This document shows positions 9,692 through 20,712 of a stretch of 64,000 bases of DNA, piece by piece. The translations under genes were made by a program, and so were the position numbers. The stretch is from Lachnospiraceae bacterium. GTDB lineage: Bacteria; Bacillota; Clostridia; Lachnospirales; Lachnospiraceae. Under the pieces are notes generated by a model. It saw nothing but the letters and a program-made list of their open reading frames with translations. It was not told the origin of the DNA and did no database searches. The stretch lies in assembly GCA_024697225.1 (NCBI GenBank), contig JAILGA010000104.1, positions 1-64,000 on the forward strand, given 5' to 3'. The first letter of the stretch is position 1. Each line of letters opens with the position of its first letter.

Positions 9692-10885
9692 CTATACGAT
9701 CGTGATGATATCCAACAGTATATAATGGAATGTGGGATATGACGTATTTGCATTCTCGATATAGCCGCTGTGCAGATCGCAGGTATCCGAGGAGTCCTCG
9801 GGATTGACGCCTATATAATTGCCGCGGAAAACAAATTCCAGATAACCGTTCTTGAACATATCTATAGCTCCGTCCATGACCTCCTGTGTCCCGGGCGCGG
9901 CGACCTGCTGGTTCAGATCTATCATCTCGACCCAGCCTCTCTCAAATCCCGCGGATATATCGGTACCGTGAACACGGCCCGCAACGACCGATTCGATCGC
10001 CTTATCGTTCATAACGGCTTCCACGGCGCCGAGTATATACGGTTCCCAGCAGATTCTTGATGTGATCAGGGATGTACCCGGAGCAACCTCCGACATGCTC
10101 TGATTATATCCCACGAAATAGACGGGTATGTTTTCCTCCGCCGCCTCTTCACAGGCAATAGCCGGGCCGATCGTGTCCGTATGCTGTGAGATTATTACGC
10201 ACCCGTCATCTATCAGCTGTTTTGCAGAGAGTTTTTCCTGGGCATAGCTGCTCCAGGTCTCGGTGTAATGGACCCGCATAACTGCTTTCGGTACTATGGA
10301 TCTGACTCCCAGAAGAAAAGCGGTGTAACCAGAGATAACCTCCGGGGTGGGAAATGCAGCCACAAAGCCCACAACGGCCTGATCTTCGGTGATGAACCCC
10401 TCGGAGATCATCTGGTCGATCTTCATGCCCGCCGCTATACCGCTCACAAAACGTCCCTGATATGCCTCCCCCTTAAATGTGTGATAATTGGCAGGCACAG
10501 TCTGATCGCTCATGTCCATGTATGAAGTCTGACAGAACTGTATATTCGGATATTCCGGCGCGAGTTTGCGCACCAGTTCGCTGTATCCATTGAAAAAGAT
10601 GATGTCACAGCCCCGTCCGGCAAGATCCCTCAGGGGCTCCTCCATCTCGTCGTCAAGTACATTGCTGCAGGTAAGGATCTCCACCTGATCGCCGTATTCC
10701 TTTTCTATCGCGTCCTTTGCCAGAGAAAAGTTGTAGGTGTAGGGAGTGCTTTCATCGTTGTCATAAATGAAACCTATCTTAAGATCGGTCTTCCCTCCTG
10801 TCAGATTCAGATACCTGAAACCGGCAATGAGACAGGCCATTACCGCCAGACACGTCAGCGCAGTTGCCAAATATACCCGCTTCAT
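9692..10885 (-). CDS. BMP-family (PnrA-like) substrate-binding protein
   Basis: N-terminal signal/TM; KIGFIYDNDES, GYSELVRKLAPEYPNIQF, GRFVSGIAAGMK typical of BMP family; 4-nt ATGA overlap with upstream gene. Confidence 0.85.
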   Translation of the reverse strand: MKRVYLATALTCLAVMACLIAGFRYLNLTGGKTDLKIGFIYDNDESTPYTYNFSLAKDAIEKEYGDQVEILTCSNVLDDEMEEPLRDLAGRGCDIIFFNGYSELVRKLAPEYPNIQFCQTSYMDMSDQTVPANYHTFKGEAYQGRFVSGIAAGMKIDQMISEGFITEDQAVVGFVAAFPTPEVISGYTAFLLGVRSIVPKAVMRVHYTETWSSYAQEKLSAKQLIDDGCVIISQHTDTIGPAIACEEAAEENIPVYFVGYNQSMSEVAPGTSLITSRICWEPYILGAVEAVMNDKAIESVVAGRVHGTDISAGFERGWVEMIDLNQQVAAPGTQEVMDGAIDMFKNGYLEFVFRGNYIGVNPEDSSDTCDLHSGYIENANTSYPTFHYILLDIITIV

Positions 10886-13800
10886 ACCCCGGCTCCTTTC
10901 TGCTCATCGGCATCTTTCTTCTCTTCTTCCGGTGTCTTCTTCTCTTCATCTGAAGTCTTTTTCTCTTCATCTGAAGCCTTGTTCTCTTCGTCTAAAGCCT
11001 TCTTCTCTTCCCCCTCCGGCTTTTTGTGCATCTCAGCCTCCTGGATGCGCTTGTCTTCCTCGACACGCCGTGTCAACTCAGCGTCCTGCTTCACGTGCGA
11101 AAGCTCTTCCTTCTTTCTCTCTGCGATCTTGTCCAGATCGATCACGCCCTTGTCCACCAGGCGTAAAAATGCATCCAGCGCATCAGGATCGAACTGGCTC
11201 CCGCGTCCGCGCCTCATCTCGTTCATGACATAATCATTATCCATATGATTTCTGTAAACGCGGTTGGAGGTCATGGCGTCAAATGCGTCCGCCACACCTA
11301 TTATCCTCGCAAAGATGGGTATCTCCTCGCCCTTTAATCCGTCGGGATAGCCGCGCCCGTCATAGCGTTCATGGTGATATCTCGTTCCGTCGACGACATG
11401 CTCTACCAGAGTAAAGTCTTTCAGGATCTCCGCGCCTCTTGTCACATGGGACTTCATCACTGCATACTCCTCGTCGGTCAGTCTTCCGACCTTGTTCAAT
11501 ATCCGGTCAGGTATGCCGATCTTTCCGATATCATGCATCTGAGCGGCTTTTCTGAGACTTGAGAGCGCTTTCCTCTTCTCCCACCACTTAAAACAGCCCA
11601 TCTCCTGCGCTATCAGCACGGAATACTCCGCGACGCTTATGGAATGCTGGTGCGTGCGCACATCCTTGGCATCGACCGCGTTCGCTATAGCCATGACGGT
11701 CTCATTAGCCATATTCAGTTTGATCTGCTGGTTGTTGATAACCCTCTGCACCACGAGCCAGGTGAACCATACGATGATCGCAGAGAGGAGGAACAGCATG
11801 TAAAATGAGAATCCCCTGCGCTCATAGAACTCGCCTTCCTTTACTATCTCGAACTTTCGTTCCTCGAGCACATGTTCCCCGGTGCTGTCCAGGATCGCCA
11901 AATGGAAGGTATAAGTACCTGACGGCAGATTGACGTAGATTATATTGTTCAGGCTGTTCTGCGGCAGTATCGTCCACTGGGTATCATACCCCTCAAGAAC
12001 ATAACCGACTGTGGGCTCCTGTATGGTATAGTTTAATATCTCGGGGCTCAATTCCACGCGGCTGACGCCCTGTCCCACGGTGATGGGGCCCATTCGGGCG
12101 ATGGGCTGCAGCTCGCCGTCCATGCGGACAGAAGCCAGCTGCATGCGGTATGAACGCACATCGCTGTTATACTTATCCACATCGATGATATAGACACCGG
12201 TATCGCAGGGAAGGAAGAGCTCACCGTTCCCGTTGTAATAGTTCCAGGAATTGGCAGTAAGCGAAGTACCCAGACCTCTTCTGGCATCCAGAAGCTCCCA
12301 GGCTATCTCGCCGCCTTCCACCAGTTCGTCGCGCTCGACCACATAGATGCCCGCACTGGACATTACAAACAGCGTATCCTCATCCTTTACCCAGATATCA
12401 TAGTTATTGAAATAAGGGAACTTGTCCAGCACGCGGATCGAACCCCCGGGTTCCAGATAGCACAGGCTGTTGCTGGTGACGATGAACACACCGTCGGATT
12501 TCGGATCCTTGACAGTCCGCAGTATGACACCGCTTGAAAGCCCGTCATCCCTGGTCAGCATCTCTGAGACCTTTCCGTCCTTTAAGATGGCGATGCCGTC
12601 GCCGTCTGTACCCGCAAGGATCGTGCCGTCCCTCATCTCCGTGATGGACAGTATCATGGAATTGATGAGACCGTCCTCGTTGCGTATGGTCTGCGTGATC
12701 TTATGATCCCTTATGTAACTGATCCCGGTATCACCGGCAGCAAGAATAGTGCCGTCCGAGAGTCCCGTAACGATCCTGGCGCGGTTTCCGAAGCTTCCAT
12801 GATCGGCATCGTAGGACCATTCCTCCCCGCTCTCCGAATATTCCATAAGCCCGCTTCCATAGGTACATACCCACAGATGGTTGTTCTCGTCCACATACAT
12901 GCAGCGGATCCGCTTGCCGTCAAGTTCTTCGGTGAGTTTGTTCTGCAGCTGCCTGCGACAGCTTTTGTCAACCACATCAAGACCTTTGTCGGTACCGATG
13001 TAGTAGCAGTCCTGCCAGAATACTATGGTGTTGACAACCCTTCTCTCCATTCCCACGGCACTGTACACATCCTTGAAGGGGGATTTCGCGAGTCTGAGGA
13101 GGCCGAGCCTTGAGGAAGTGAACCAGAGATTGCCCTGATAATCGTAGAGCATATTATCTATGGAATTGTTGAAATCATTGGTGTTCAGTATATGGTATCC
13201 GCCTTTGTCTATGTAGGATACGCCGCTGTCCGTTGAAATAAAGAGAGTTCCGTCGCTCAGATAGTTCAGATTGTTGATGCTGACGACATTCTCGCAGGTC
13301 ATGACATCGAGTTCTTTCAACTCGTCCCCGGAGACATCATAGCTGTATATATGATCAGTCGAGGTGCCGACCATAAGGGTTCCGTCCGGCGCAAAAGCGC
13401 AGCACCTGAAGATCTCCTGTTCGTCAGGCATCGTCAGGGAACATCTGATCTCGCCACCGTCCAGCAGAAACAGCCGGCCGTCGGAGGATATGGTAGCCAC
13501 ATGACCGACCTCATCAGCTGTTATGCTGTCGGCATAATTGATCTCGTCCAGAGTATGCGCTGCCCTGAGACCGTTATTCATCATCAGTATCTGCATGCTG
13601 GCAGTCGTTCCCACGTAGTAATATCCATCCGCCGCCCGCACGATGCAGCGCACTGAATTGGACGGAAGGCCGTCAGACTGATCCAGTACATTAACGACCT
13701 TCTCGCGTATCACGATTGACAGACCGTTGTCATTGGTACCGATCCACAGTCGCCCCTCCTCATCTACATAGAGGCAGTTTACGTTTCTTACGGATTCATA

Positions 13801-14634
13801 GTCGTCAACCCAGCGGAATTCCCGCCCGTTGTAGCGGTACAGTCCCGCATAGGTCCCTATCCACAGCACCCCGTCGTTGGTCTGGGCGATGTCATTGGCC
13901 TCGCCGCAGGGCAGTCCGTTATTGCTGCTGTATACACTCTGAACATAGTCATTGTAATCCGTCGTTGCAGATGCGGCAGCTTTCACCCGCGCCGGTGCGA
14001 GCATGGATATTCCCAGAGATATGATAAGAAGTGCGACAGTACCCGCGGTACCCGCTGCCTTGCCGTCGTTCACTGTCCCGTCCTTTTTGCGGTTCCGGTA
14101 ATACCGGCGAAGCAGGATGACCAGATACACCGCCGCGATAGTCAGCACTTTATCGGCAAATTCAATGGCAAGCTGTCCCATGACGCAGCATATGAAAGGC
14201 GGCCATTCCTTGTCCAGCAGATAAGTGATGACACCGTCGCCCCACTTATTTCCGGTGAAGCCGTTGTCAAAGAACATATCCACAGGCACAGACACGATGA
14301 GTGAAATTATCACGGCCATTGATGCAGTCTTCATAAAGCCGTAAAACTGATCGAACCAGTGCTTCTTAGCGGCAACGCCGATGATGATACCCAGAGCGAC
14401 ACTGGTGATCGCGTAGGCCGCCGAAAGTTTGTTGACCACGCAGTAGGCCAGATTGCCGGTGACACCGACCATGGCGCCGCACACCGGACCCCCGATATAT
14501 GCACAAAGAGCAGTTCCGAAGGAATCGAGCCACAGCGGCAGTTCCAGCCATACAGCCAGAAGCTTTCCGCCCACATTAAGACACAGACATGTCGCCACAA
14601 ACAGAATGATCTTCCAGAGTTTCCATTTCTTCAT
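10882..14634 (-). CDS. Multidomain receptor: ECF-S-like membrane domain + two-component-type beta-propeller + Y_Y_Y-like domain + TM + HD-GYP
   Basis: Repeated DGxLWIGTxxGLxxY propeller motifs; HDIGK and YHHERYDGRGYPDG. Start set at MKKWKLWK with SD GGGAGGAAG (track ORF to 14685). Confidence 0.9.
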   Translation of the reverse strand: MKKWKLWKIILFVATCLCLNVGGKLLAVWLELPLWLDSFGTALCAYIGGPVCGAMVGVTGNLAYCVVNKLSAAYAITSVALGIIIGVAAKKHWFDQFYGFMKTASMAVIISLIVSVPVDMFFDNGFTGNKWGDGVITYLLDKEWPPFICCVMGQLAIEFADKVLTIAAVYLVILLRRYYRNRKKDGTVNDGKAAGTAGTVALLIISLGISMLAPARVKAAASATTDYNDYVQSVYSSNNGLPCGEANDIAQTNDGVLWIGTYAGLYRYNGREFRWVDDYESVRNVNCLYVDEEGRLWIGTNDNGLSIVIREKVVNVLDQSDGLPSNSVRCIVRAADGYYYVGTTASMQILMMNNGLRAAHTLDEINYADSITADEVGHVATISSDGRLFLLDGGEIRCSLTMPDEQEIFRCCAFAPDGTLMVGTSTDHIYSYDVSGDELKELDVMTCENVVSINNLNYLSDGTLFISTDSGVSYIDKGGYHILNTNDFNNSIDNMLYDYQGNLWFTSSRLGLLRLAKSPFKDVYSAVGMERRVVNTIVFWQDCYYIGTDKGLDVVDKSCRRQLQNKLTEELDGKRIRCMYVDENNHLWVCTYGSGLMEYSESGEEWSYDADHGSFGNRARIVTGLSDGTILAAGDTGISYIRDHKITQTIRNEDGLINSMILSITEMRDGTILAGTDGDGIAILKDGKVSEMLTRDDGLSSGVILRTVKDPKSDGVFIVTSNSLCYLEPGGSIRVLDKFPYFNNYDIWVKDEDTLFVMSSAGIYVVERDELVEGGEIAWELLDARRGLGTSLTANSWNYYNGNGELFLPCDTGVYIIDVDKYNSDVRSYRMQLASVRMDGELQPIARMGPITVGQGVSRVELSPEILNYTIQEPTVGYVLEGYDTQWTILPQNSLNNIIYVNLPSGTYTFHLAILDSTGEHVLEERKFEIVKEGEFYERRGFSFYMLFLLSAIIVWFTWLVVQRVINNQQIKLNMANETVMAIANAVDAKDVRTHQHSISVAEYSVLIAQEMGCFKWWEKRKALSSLRKAAQMHDIGKIGIPDRILNKVGRLTDEEYAVMKSHVTRGAEILKDFTLVEHVVDGTRYHHERYDGRGYPDGLKGEEIPIFARIIGVADAFDAMTSNRVYRNHMDNDYVMNEMRRGRGSQFDPDALDAFLRLVDKGVIDLDKIAERKKEELSHVKQDAELTRRVEEDKRIQEAEMHKKPEGEEKKALDEENKASDEEKKTSDEEKKTPEEEKKDADEQKGAGV
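10905..11010 (-). repeat. 21-nt tandem repeat encoding EEKKxxD heptads
   Basis: Five imperfect units of tcttctcttcatctgaagtct; protein EEKKALD-EENKASD-EEKKTSD-EEKKTPE-EEKKDAD. Confidence 0.85.
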
Positions 14635-14703
14635 ATGCCGTGACTTCCTCCCACATAATGCAGGACAATCGCACCAAACAATCATAAAAAAACGCTGATA
14701 ATT

Positions 14704-14787: not shown

Positions 14788-14843
14788 ATATTGTTATTTT
14801 TTCACCGTAACCGGCAAAACATCAATTGAGGAAAACGCAGCCG

Positions 14844-16976
14844 ATGAATCACAGCTCAGGATACGCACAACTTAAAAAGCAGAACTTATCGGCACTGTTC
14901 TTCTGTGCTGTCGCTGTCTGCGTGAATCTCCTGGCCGGACTCGCGGTGTCCGCGCTGGGGCTCCCACTGTATATGGACACTCTCGGCAGTATTGTGATGG
15001 CTGCGCTTGGCGGCACACTTCCGGGAGTCCTTGTTGCTTTCTTCACCAATATCATAAAGGGCTTTTACGCACCGACTTCCGTTTTTTACGCCTTTCTCAA
15101 CGTGCTGATCGCATTCTGTGCGGCAAGGCTCGGCCACCGCGGCTATTTCAAACACACCCGCGGCATAGTGGCCTCCATGCTCATATTCACCATGATAGGC
15201 GGGGTATTCGGATCTGTCATCCCCTTGTTCACGGAAGGACCTGCCATAGACAGCAATGCTCTGGGCAGTTTTCTCTATTCCACTGGCATTTTCGGTCCAG
15301 TGGCCGCGCATTTCATATCCTGTTTTCTGACGGATCTGCTTGATAAAGCCATCACGGTCCTTCTGGCAGCCGTTATTATCCGCCTGATACCGGAGAGATT
15401 TTACGATTACTTCAGCCTTAAGGCATGGATGCAGAAGCCCCTTTCCGACGAAAAGGCCTTCACCCACAGAAAGCAGCCCGTGCGTGTGATCTCGATGCAG
15501 GCCAAGTTCACACTCATCCTCAGTATATCCCTGATCGCAGTCTCCGTTATCATCATCACGATAAGCATGCTTATATACCACAGATCCCTTGTGAGCGAAC
15601 ACACAAGGATCGCCAAGGGCGCAGCCGGGATCGCAAAGAGCGTCATCGACGGCGACAGAGTAGATGACTATCTCGAAAGAGGCACCTATGCTCCGGGATA
15701 TAACGAGACAAAGAGGCTCCTTACCGATATCTATGCCGATTCCACCGATATCGCGTTTCTGTATGTATATAAGATAAAGGAAGACGGCATACATGTCGTA
15801 TTTGATGTCGACACTCCCGAGATAGCCGGTGACGCGACAGGCTCTCTCCTTCCTTTTGAAGAAAGATTTCTTCCGTATGTGCCCGCAATGCTTGCCGGCG
15901 AAGAGATCGAGCCCAATATCACAAAAGATGAATACGGATACCTGCTGACAGTATTTCAGCCTGTGTATGACTCCGCCGGAAACTGCGTGTGCTACACGGG
16001 CGTGGATGTGAACATGGCACGGCTCACAGCTATGGAGCGCGGTTTCCTCATCGAGCTGATATCAACATTTATAGGTTTCTTCATCTTCCTCATAGTTGTT
16101 GTGATCTGGCTTACCGAATACATGCTCATCATCCCCATAAACTCACTCACCGAGCGGGTCAACAGATTCGCTGATACCACGGATACTCAGGAGAGCATGG
16201 ATAATAACGCGAGAAAGATAAGAGGGCTCGATATCCACACGGGTGATGAGGTCGAGAAGCTCTATCTCTCCGTGAGCAGGCTGGTCTTGCAGCAGACCGA
16301 ACAGCTCCGCAACATACGCAAGCTTTCCGATTCCACCGCAAAAATGCAGGACGGACTCATCATCACGATGGCGGACATGGTTGAAAACCGCGATTCCGAT
16401 ACGGGTGCACACATCCAGAAAACCGCCGCCTATGTGAAGATAATCGTGGAAGGATTGAAGAAAAAGGGCTACTACACCGAAAAGATCACTCCCAAGTTTA
16501 TCTCGGACGTAGTCCGTTCCGCCCCGCTCCATGATGTAGGAAAGATCAACATCCCCGACGGCGTGCTAAACAAACCCGGTAAGCTTACCGACGAGGAATA
16601 TGCGATCATGAAGACACATACCGTATCCGGAAAGCTAATAATGGAGAATGCCATCGGCACCGTGTCGGGCGAAAACTATCTCAAGGAAGCCAGAAACATG
16701 GCCGCATATCACCACGAGCGCTGGGACGGAAAAGGCTATCCCGAGGGTCTCCACGGCGAGGTAATACCTCTTTCTGCTCGCATAATGGCTGTCGCGGACG
16801 TCTTTGACGCTCTGACCTCACCCAGGATCTATAAACCTGCTTTCCCTCTTGATAAAGCTCTTTCGATCATAGAAGAAGGCAAAGGTACCCAGTTCGACCC
16901 CAAATGCGTGGAGGTCTTTATGGAAAATCTTGACGAAGTAAAGATCATCCTGAGCAAATACAGCCGGGGCATATAA
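14844..16976 (+). CDS. ECF-S-like membrane domain + extracytoplasmic sensor + HD-GYP protein
   Basis: Hydrophobic N-terminus with [13 protein letters not shown]; second TM pair flanking ~150-aa sensor; [11 protein letters not shown] and [14 protein letters not shown]. Start at MNHSSG after AGGA (track ORF from 14826). Confidence 0.9.
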
Positions 16977-16989
16977 GGGGAGTATATCC

Positions 16990-18312
16990 ATGATCACACA
17001 CGATCTCACGCTGTTAAATATTGCTGTTTTTGTTCTCATAGTCTTTGTGACGGTACTGATCGCATGGCACGTCATCAAAACCACAGTCATACAAAAACAA
17101 TACGATGAGATAAAGAAGGCAAAGGATGACGCTGAGAGCGCCAACTCGGCCAAATCCAGATTCCTTGCCAATATGTCCCACGAGATCCGGACGCCCATCA
17201 ACACCATCATGGGGATGAACGAAATGGCACTCAGAGAGGACGCCTCAGGCGTGCCCAGAGAATACTACACGGCTATGAGAAACTATTCCCTGGATATACG
17301 CAATGCCGCGGAAACACTTTTGTCCCTCATAGATGATGTACTCGATATGTCCAGGATCGAGTCGGGCAAGATGCGTCTTGTCGAACAGGAATATGACACG
17401 CAGAAAATGCTCAGATCCATCGTATCGATGATAAGGATGCGCAGCATAGATAAGGAGCTCACATTTGACGTCAGCGTCGATGAACTCCTTCCGTCCCGCC
17501 TGTACGGGGATCAGGGAAAGATCAGGCAGATCCTGCTGAATCTTCTGACCAACGCCCTCAAATACACCGATATCGGGGGATTCTCGCTGAATGTCTCGAT
17601 GCCGGAAAGGCATGACGACGAATGCCTGCTCAGGTTTTCCGTCAAAGACACCGGAATAGGCATCAGAGAAGAGGATATCGACAAACTCTTCACCGCTTAC
17701 GAGCGCCTTGACGAGGAGAAAAACAGCGATATCCGCGGAACGGGGCTCGGGCTTGACATCTCACGAAGATTTGCGGAACTGATGAACGGCACTCTCACCT
17801 GCGAAAGCGTATACGGAAACGGTTCGGAATTCATACTGACCCTTAAGCAGAAGATCATCGATCCTTCTCCGACAGGTGTTTTCACAGAGCATGATGAAAG
17901 CGCGGCAAACGGCCCCTATGTGCCTCAGTTCATAGCGCCCGATGCCGATATCCTTGTAGTGGACGACACTCCCGTGAATCTGAACATAATCAAAGGTCTG
18001 CTGAAGGCGACGAGAGTATTTGTCACAACCGCATCAAGCGGCGAGGAATGCCTCGAGAAGATAAAGGAGACCAGATTCAACGTCGTTCTCCTCGATTACA
18101 TTATGCCGGGCATGGACGGTCTTGAGACCATAGCTGGGATCCGTGAGATCGACCCCGATCTCCCTGTTTATGCCCTGACTGCCAACTCGGCGAACACTGA
18201 AGACTTCTATATATCCAGGGGATTTACCGGTTATCTCACCAAACCTGTTGACAGCATTGCCCTCGAAAAAGCCATCATGCGGCATCTGCCTGAAGAGATG
18301 ATGGAAAAATGA
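16990..18312 (+). CDS. Hybrid histidine kinase (TM-HisKA-HATPase-REC)
   Basis: H-box [11 protein letters not shown]-box [10 protein letters not shown] boxes DTGIGI/GTGLGL, REC DDTPVN...[11 protein letters not shown]...KP. Confidence 0.95.
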
Positions 18313-18339: not shown

Positions 18340-20712
18340 ATGTTTGACCTGATAAAAGCCCACCAGCTGAATATCATGCTTGTATTGTGCGGAGCCTGCG
18401 CCACGATAGCGCTTCTCCTCATCATAACACAGTTTATATCAAGAAGCAGAAAGACCATCCTCATACTGATGGAAGTTGTCGCCCTGCTGCTTTTGTGGTT
18501 TGACAGACTGGCTTATATCTACTCCGGAAATATGACCCAGAAAGGATATATCATGGTGAGGGTCAGCAATTTCTTCGTATTTTTCCTCACCTCAGCGATT
18601 GTGCTCGTTTTTACGGGATACATTGTGGATCTCCTGACCCACGAAGGCGGAATGAAAAAGGCTCCCAGAAGGCTCTACATAGTCGGATATGCAGCTGCCG
18701 CAGGAATGCTGATGTCTGCCATCTCCGCGTTCACGAACCTGTACTACTATTTTGACGGAGCAAACAGATATCACAGGGGAAACGGCTTTCTGATAGCCTA
18801 TATAGTGCCTGTCATCTGTCCGCTCATACAGCTCAGCGTCATTATCCACTACAGGAAAAAATTCAGCCGGCTGATCTTCGCCTCCCTGCTGCTTTACATC
18901 ATTGTACCTATAAGTTGCGGGATCCTGCAGATCTTTGCCTACGGAATATCAATAGTGAATATGTCAATGGTACTGGTGTCGGTATCGCTGTATGCCTTTA
19001 CTCACCTTGATATCAACGATGAGGTCAAGCGCGCTCACGAGATCGAGATGAACAACATCCTGGGCGAGAGAGTGCGTCTGCAGCGGCTTTTCGACCAGAC
19101 GGCCAACGCCTTTGTCTCGGCAGTTGAAAAAAAGGACGATTTCACAAAGGGTAATTCCGCCAGAGTTGCCGGATATGCTAAAAGGATCGCAGAGCTCTCG
19201 GGCAAGAGCGCTGATGACTGTGAAAAAGTATACTATGCCGCCCTTCTCCACGATGTCGGGATGATAGGCATACCTGACAGCGTCATAAAGAACGAAGGTG
19301 ATCCGGAAAAATGGGACTATGAGATGATCCGCCAAAAACCGATCATCGGCGCGGAAATATTATCAAGCATCACAGAATATCCCTATCTCAGCCAGGGTGC
19401 CAGGTACAGCCACGAGAGATACAACGGTACAGGCTATCCCGAAGGGCTTAAAGGAAATGATATACCGGAGATAGCACGGATCATAGGTGTTGCCGACGCC
19501 TATGTCACCGCGACTTCAAAAAAAAGATACCGCGACGCCAGACCTGATTTCGTGGTCAGGGAGATGCTCGTCAAGGGCGCGGGCGAGACCTTTGATCCTG
19601 ATTTTTCCAAATGCATGCTCAAGGCCATTGACGAGGACGTAAGCGAGGAAACGCGCAAACGCAGTGCCCCGCTCGAGACAGGTCTCGAATGCGGCGCATA
19701 CAGAGACACAGTATCCCTCGGCATCTTAGCTGATGAGTCAGAAAAAAGGATCAGTTTCAGATGCGGACCCTCAGATGATGCCAAAGGAACCTTCAGCGCG
19801 CCCTCGATCATTCTGTTCGACTCCTACGATGAGCGCGTTCATACCGGCGAAAAGGCCATTAAGGAATACAGTTATCTTGAGTACGGTGAGATCTGGTTTG
19901 ACGACAATATGATAAACAACCAGATGCGGAAAGCCGAGGTAAACATAATATCACGCGCCGGAAAGAACGCTTCCGGAGGCGACGGCCCCGCCGAATACGA
20001 GATCATCGCGGGCAAATACGAGGACCACATCAGGCTCAGGATGCAAGGACCGGCGATGTCAAAGGAACTCATCATCGTTTTGCCCGACAGTTCCAAATCG
20101 GCCTATATCGGGATCACGGGCGAGAATTGCAGCATTACGGACATCTCTGTCGAACCGACTGGTGTTACTCTTGGGCAGGGGGACATCCCGCGTATAGCCG
20201 AGGCAATAAGCTATACCGATCACCTCGAATCCGATATCAGCAACGTCCAGATCGATACGAACAGATCAGCCTCGACCGAGGGCATAAAACTGAACGACAG
20301 TTTAAGGATCAGTTTCCATACCATGAGCCTTCCCGGTGCAAGCTTCATATGGCACTGTCCCTATATAATCCTGTTTAACTCTGATGACGGCCTCGTCGGC
20401 GGCGAAAACTATATCGAACACAATGTGATCAAGCTAAACGGCGAGAGCGATAATCAGGATGATCCTGCCCGAAACAGATTCGTCATGAAGAAAAAAGACG
20501 ACTTCCCGGGCTGGGAAGCCTGGAAAGCCGCCAATAAAGAAGGTCTTGACTGCGAGGTCACCATAGACAGGATCGGCGACCGTGTGATCATAAAAACCGA
20601 GAATCTGGGCATCAGCATCGAGAGCATCACTACTCTTCCCGATAAAAACGGAAACGTATTTGTAGCGCTCAGCGGTGATCAGTGCGCACTGACCGATATC
20701 AGGATCAGCTGA
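18340..20712 (+). CDS. Multi-TM protein with degenerate HD-GYP domain and two C-terminal beta-sandwich-like repeats
   Basis: 7-8 TM N-terminus; HDVGM and YSHERYNGTGYPEG; internal homology APSIILFDSYDE / CPYIILFNSDDG and GENCSITDISV / GDQCALTDIRI. Confidence 0.85.
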   Translation: MFDLIKAHQLNIMLVLCGACATIALLLIITQFISRSRKTILILMEVVALLLLWFDRLAYIYSGNMTQKGYIMVRVSNFFVFFLTSAIVLVFTGYIVDLLTHEGGMKKAPRRLYIVGYAAAAGMLMSAISAFTNLYYYFDGANRYHRGNGFLIAYIVPVICPLIQLSVIIHYRKKFSRLIFASLLLYIIVPISCGILQIFAYGISIVNMSMVLVSVSLYAFTHLDINDEVKRAHEIEMNNILGERVRLQRLFDQTANAFVSAVEKKDDFTKGNSARVAGYAKRIAELSGKSADDCEKVYYAALLHDVGMIGIPDSVIKNEGDPEKWDYEMIRQKPIIGAEILSSITEYPYLSQGARYSHERYNGTGYPEGLKGNDIPEIARIIGVADAYVTATSKKRYRDARPDFVVREMLVKGAGETFDPDFSKCMLKAIDEDVSEETRKRSAPLETGLECGAYRDTVSLGILADESEKRISFRCGPSDDAKGTFSAPSIILFDSYDERVHTGEKAIKEYSYLEYGEIWFDDNMINNQMRKAEVNIISRAGKNASGGDGPAEYEIIAGKYEDHIRLRMQGPAMSKELIIVLPDSSKSAYIGITGENCSITDISVEPTGVTLGQGDIPRIAEAISYTDHLESDISNVQIDTNRSASTEGIKLNDSLRISFHTMSLPGASFIWHCPYIILFNSDDGLVGGENYIEHNVIKLNGESDNQDDPARNRFVMKKKDDFPGWEAWKAANKEGLDCEVTIDRIGDRVIIKTENLGISIESITTLPDKNGNVFVALSGDQCALTDIRIS

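Follow-up and report, generated by a model that had tools for sequence, protein, structure and literature searches.

A degenerate HD-GYP protein of rumen Lachnospiraceae as a candidate membrane c-di-GMP receptor with predicted cytoplasmic lectin-fold modules

What role can be left to an HD-GYP domain whose catalytic residues have been replaced? The question is raised by one gene in the window, by which we mean the whole stretch of 64,000 nucleotides analysed here (Lachnospiraceae bacterium, assembly GCA_024697225.1, contig JAILGA010000104.1). This gene (18340..20712, + strand), whose ATG start is preceded by AAGGAGAT, encodes a protein of 790 residues with three parts: a seven-helix transmembrane (7TM) module, a pseudo-HD-GYP domain and a tandem concanavalin-A-like sandwich. 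The layout follows from the open reading frame and a full-length AlphaFold2 model built with 43 sequences in the input (pLDDT 86.6). About 29 full-length close orthologues of this focal protein occur in the genus.

The N-terminal 7TM input module (residues 1-224; 18340..19011, + strand) has its N-terminus outside, as judged from the model, hydropathy and positive-inside loops. Its outer loop 4 carries the conserved motif YxFDxxNxYxRG, in which Y136, N142, Y144 and R146 are invariant. The Pfam search matched no family to the module, and its Foldseek similarity to 7TM receptors is weak and no proof of kinship (E about 2e-3, TM 0.45-0.5); in L036/L037 the same module also forms the N-terminal part of a hybrid histidine kinase. 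From the seventh helix, a long stalk helix (residues 205-265; 18952..19134, + strand) runs unbroken into the HD-GYP domain in the model. The sequence-only reading of this DNA had put the C-terminal part in the cytoplasm, having seen no transmembrane segment between it and the HD-GYP domain. The seven-helix topology, the hydropathy and the loop charge agree: the positive charge lies in loops 1, 3 and 5, which sets the C-terminus inside, and beyond residue 230 no hydrophobic stretch could cross the membrane (best 19-residue mean 1.14). On these grounds both the HD-GYP domain and the C-terminal modules are predicted to sit in the cytoplasm.

The HD-GYP domain (about residues 258-421; 19111..19602, + strand) belongs to PF13487 (E 5e-28; 98.3 bits against a curated cut-off of 27.2) and is the only part of the protein that Pfam recognises; its modelled fold matches PA4781 with a TM of 0.81 (Foldseek). 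In the alignment, the positions of PmGH E185/H189/H221/D222/K225/H250/H276/H277/D305 are occupied by F/N/H/D/M/K/S/H/D, with the further changes D308 to V, R314 to K and K317 to R. The focal protein keeps the GYP motif, the glutamate of HHE, H221, D222, H277 and D305, and departs from the phosphodiesterase ligand set (H221, D222, H250, H276, H277, D305 and Lys225) at H250 (K), H276 (S) and K225 (M). In the three other HD-GYP proteins of the window (P0003, P0004 and P0005), H189, H221, D222, K225, H250, H276, H277 and D305 are all intact. PmGH is left with essentially no activity when H189, H250 or H276 is changed to alanine (PMC4159591). Loss of the E185 and H189 equivalents alone is not decisive, since the archetypal HD-GYP protein RpfG lacks both (two of the eight PmGH ligands) and a binuclear site has been proposed for it all the same (PMC4159591). 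With both H250 and H276 replaced, the second metal site should be gone, and judging by its residues it is near certain that the domain has lost c-di-GMP hydrolysis. Mapping onto PmGH upholds the initial impression that several metal ligands and the catalytic lysine are lost while GYP is kept, with two amendments. The change of GHS to GNS was rightly read as a substitution, but GHS is not the common form in the window, being found in P0004 only (the others have GAH and HQH). The change of FDA to YVT had been counted as a ligand loss, but the aspartate of this motif is no metal ligand: D308 is strongly conserved and not among the ligands (PMC4159591).

The same losses recur far beyond this genome. 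From the genomes of the genus and of the GTDB species we obtained 132 usable proteins combining HD-GYP with the C-terminal modules, and built a tree from the C-terminal modules only, by a quick method with SH-aLRT support and no bootstrap. The 99 proteins with degenerate HD domains, from Butyrivibrio and other Lachnospiraceae, form one branch (SH-aLRT 97), answering an earlier call to look for homologues with the same degenerate residues. Intact homologues had been named as evidence that would speak against a non-catalytic domain; they are confined to separate sister clades with this architecture and do not refute it, as all close orthologues of the focal protein share the catalytic-residue loss. 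The next neighbours on the tree are intact (L036, L037) or partly degenerate (L033), and the deeper clades are all intact or nearly so. Given that the HD-GYP family is catalytic and that the degenerate proteins share one branch, the simplest reading of the sequences is one catalytic loss, L033 and L035 having undergone partial losses of their own. L068, the one candidate degenerate protein outside the clade, was rejected as truncated; it was left out of the residue counts together with L142, the HD domain of both being cut in the available sequence.

Within the clade, H250 is replaced by K in 77 of 98 members and H276 by S in 72; K225 has become M, L or I in 88/98 and D308 V in 72/98. H189 is often not kept either, and relatives show further erosion of catalytic residues. 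Other positions are preserved: G284 and P286 (95/98), Y285 (87/98), E278 (95/98), Leu220 (94/98), a basic K/R at 314 (77/98) and R at 317 (76/98), with G282 and I294 likewise conserved in most members. Close pairs of clade members with full-length domains gave dN/dS values of 0.01-0.14 in the HD part. The degenerate domain is maintained under purifying selection, and such values imply that it does something without catalysis; decay of the gene in a single genome is rejected by clade-wide fixation together with low dN/dS. The claim of a non-catalytic domain is borne out, as far as residues can tell, by the ligand set and this fixation. Three members from different assemblies (L084, L091 and L147) have gone further: about 60 residues are deleted, the GYP loop is gone and the HD motif is changed, with the frame still open. 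Despite deletion of the nucleotide pocket, they retain the stalk, 7TM and lectin-fold parts in frame, which indicates that c-di-GMP binding is not essential to every member.

The gene closes a conserved operon. Its first gene (14826..16976, + strand; L005 in our ligand comparison), a conserved upstream neighbour, encodes a membrane HD-GYP protein of 716 residues with intact catalytic residues (PF13487, E 3e-32), and the second (16990..18312, + strand) a hybrid histidine kinase of 440 residues with HisKA, HATPase and receiver domains (Pfam). The intergenic gaps are 13 and 27 bp, the latter between the kinase and the focal gene. In 86 of the 89 clade members with enough flanking sequence, the nearest upstream neighbour, on the same strand, codes for one of three products, a tandem receiver, a hybrid kinase or a membrane HD-GYP protein with intact catalytic residues, the order being HD-GYP, kinase, (receiver), pseudo-HD-GYP. 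The tandem-receiver gene that follows the kinase in many relatives is absent from the window operon, and its closest counterpart in the rest of the genome shares just 43% identity. The kinase of the window has one transmembrane helix and no sensor domain; in many relatives it has a Reg_prop-like propeller that matches the propeller part of P0005. At L072, L073 and L147 an intact paralogue lies immediately downstream of the pseudo-HD-GYP gene. A downstream gene as conserved output was considered and rejected, downstream genes not being shared among the clade loci. Upstream and divergent lies a gene (10882-14685, - strand) for a membrane protein that combines a Reg_prop/Y_Y_Y propeller, an intact HD-GYP domain and a tail of charged, E/K-rich repeats. 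The host genome holds 34 GGDEF and 14 HD_5 matches and one to PilZ; dozens of diguanylate cyclases against a single PilZ protein leave most c-di-GMP receptors of these bacteria unaccounted for.

We propose, on an even balance of probability, that the focal protein is a membrane receptor: a non-hydrolysing, c-di-GMP-binding switch coupling the 7TM input to a cytoplasmic lectin-fold output. The outside-facing 7TM module would act through the continuous stalk helix on an HD-GYP domain that, on strong sequence evidence, has no metal centre and does not hydrolyse c-di-GMP. This domain would be kept as a dimerising switch, most likely binding c-di-GMP metal-free as DvhD does, and would hand its state to the tandem sandwich, an output or ligand-reading domain by its predicted fold. 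The active HD-GYP protein of the operon, the hybrid kinase and, in relatives, the tandem receiver may be its partners, joining a phosphorelay to c-di-GMP. Several lines support this receptor reading: ligands essential in PmGH are missing, the same changes are fixed in the clade under purifying selection, and the nucleotide-side residues are kept or conservatively changed. The closeness of the fold to DvhD, one PilZ match against 34 GGDEF and 14 HD_5, and the conserved operon position point the same way.

DvhD of Desulfovibrio vulgaris has an HD-GYP domain that binds c-di-GMP without hydrolysis (PMC13090378), and among ligand-bound structures this domain, in complex with c-di-GMP, comes closest in fold to our model (PDB 9rbz/9rc0; TM 0.84). 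Both are membrane proteins with a stalk helix ahead of a degenerate HD-GYP domain, non-hydrolysing in DvhD and presumably so in the focal protein, and the pattern expected of a DvhD-like receptor, metal ligands lost with the domain conserved, is found throughout the clade of 99. In DvhD, however, the HD motif itself is lost (SQ) and K582 kept, whereas the focal protein keeps HD and has M at K225; DvhD receives its input through a periplasmic dCache plus PAS domain, has neither a 7TM module nor a lectin-fold C-terminus, and controls an adhesin protease. Of the residues that contact c-di-GMP in DvhD (aligned, with hand-counted numbering), the focal protein retains L577, Y621 and Y652, and has K in place of R650, M in place of K582 and G in place of E668. 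Binding is plausible by this analogy; the loss of K225 (the phosphate contact K582 of DvhD) to M/L and the glycine aligned with E668 count against it. We can only speculate that the lysine at the H250 position replaces the charge of a metal close to the phosphates. PmGH and PA4781 share the HD-GYP fold and GYP loop, but both bind active-site metals and PmGH is active, while H250, H276 and K225 are all missing from the focal protein. LapD-type degenerate GGDEF-EAL receptors would offer a parallel as enzymes turned membrane c-di-GMP receptors; they are built from other domains, and their output is periplasmic.

The core-deleted members invite an explanation in which no nucleotide takes part, the pseudo-HD-GYP domain being a mere dimerising stalk that transmits from the 7TM module to the lectin fold. 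L084, L091 and L147 have lost the whole pocket with the other domains in frame, K225 is not conserved, nor in many cases H189, and the stalk is modelled as continuous from the seventh helix. A pure spacer would have no need of the GYP motif, E278, G282, I294 and the basic residues 314/317, conserved in most members under low dN/dS. We regard such a scaffold as unlikely, though deserving weight, because the deletion members show that some proteins of the clade can do without binding.

The operon suggests another possibility, that of a regulatory pseudoenzyme that associates, in mixed dimers or complexes, with the operon's active HD-GYP protein or its hybrid kinase and sets their activity. Its arguments, the conservation of intact HD-GYP and kinase genes in the 86 of 89 flanked loci, the intact paralogue right downstream at L072, L073 and L147, and the lack of a sensor in the window kinase, are all drawn from gene order, and we find it distinctly improbable. 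As for an active phosphodiesterase with an unusual metal site, HD, H277 and D305 are present and RpfG sets the precedent of a proposed two-metal site without E185/H189 equivalents (PMC4159591); the replacement by K and S of two residues that the second metal requires (H250 and H276), the loss of K225 and the further erosion in relatives make it very hard to believe.

Very few degenerate HD-GYP receptors have been worked out (DvhD, 2026), and here a large clade of apparently single origin in rumen Lachnospiraceae comes with catalytic sisters that share its architecture and with members that have lost the active-site core. The series from intact through degenerate to deleted allows the conversion of phosphodiesterase to receptor to be tested directly. 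In the open-access literature we found no paper linking HD-GYP to concanavalin-A-like domains, and only general studies naming HD-GYP with Lachnospiraceae or Butyrivibrio; a cytoplasmic tandem lectin-fold output has no counterpart in the c-di-GMP signalling literature searched.

The C-terminal part, suspected earlier of holding two related modules, proves to consist of true repeats: repeat 1 (about residues 456-610; 19705..20169, + strand) and repeat 2 (about residues 630-790; 20227..20709, + strand) match each other in profile-profile comparison with probability 99.0% and E 2.8e-18 (24% identity over 145 columns). Structure prediction and a Foldseek search, suggested at the outset, returned an all-beta, lectin-type sandwich (AlphaFold2 pLDDT 92.8), with tandem galectins as the best solved matches (galectin-8, E 7e-6), then laminin-G, galectin-10 and VIP36. 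Over the whole length the TM is low (about 0.2), probably owing to different placement of the two domains; for a single domain it reaches 0.51. In the model, the modules adopt the concanavalin-A-like two-sheet jelly-roll sandwich shared by tandem galectins, laminin-G and VIP36. Unlike these, the focal domain is cytoplasmic, and searching the PDB sequences with a profile found no match; nor was a galectin-type sugar motif seen in the modules. Pfam gave no match over the cut-off for the C-terminal part of 50 members, including to any known CBM family.

Module matches extend to 39 of 299 genomes in the wider family. Most weak ones are other proteins, with a signal peptide, one or two copies and a wall or membrane anchor; one also carries a Laminin_G_3 domain. 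Repeat 2 matches such secreted or anchored Lachnospiraceae proteins (L163-L170) with probability 99.6% and E 2e-24, the related regions lying at L163:2287-3705, L164:1405-2325, L165:1746-2612, L168:1881-2684, L169:1901-2587 and L170:3067-5151. These distant homologues have one or two lectin-fold-related domains, to which Pfam assigns no family; R-x-D is common to them, with a W after it in most, and these residues are changed in the focal clade. Intact HD-GYP homologues mostly keep R-x-D-G-E (R 25/30, D 26/30), while the degenerate clade has K-x-N-G-E (K 98/99, N 81/99), KLNGE replacing RxDGE in repeat 2 of the focal protein. Since the sisters L036 and L037 combine K-x-N with an intact HD domain, this change probably preceded HD-domain degeneration. 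A surface-type module appears to have been recruited to the cell interior, its site being altered afterwards.

More doubtfully, such an internalised surface lectin-type domain, under a 7TM/c-di-GMP-controlled receptor, might read an internal glycan (a stored, lipid-linked or imported oligosaccharide) together with the outside signal and c-di-GMP; the change from R-x-D to K-x-N in repeat 2 counts against a retained sugar site. By its distribution the HD-GYP/lectin-fold unit is one that moves between input modules: in proteins of about 1400 residues (L057:528-4811, L058:1475-5668 and L061:515-4639), HD-GYP with intact catalytic residues and the same terminal tandem follow a different N-terminus. 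L064 (279 residues) was rejected as a stand-alone lectin-fold protein; its N-terminus resembles the start of the 5TM module in the operon's first protein, its C-part starts inside repeat 1, and it looks like a deletion remnant.
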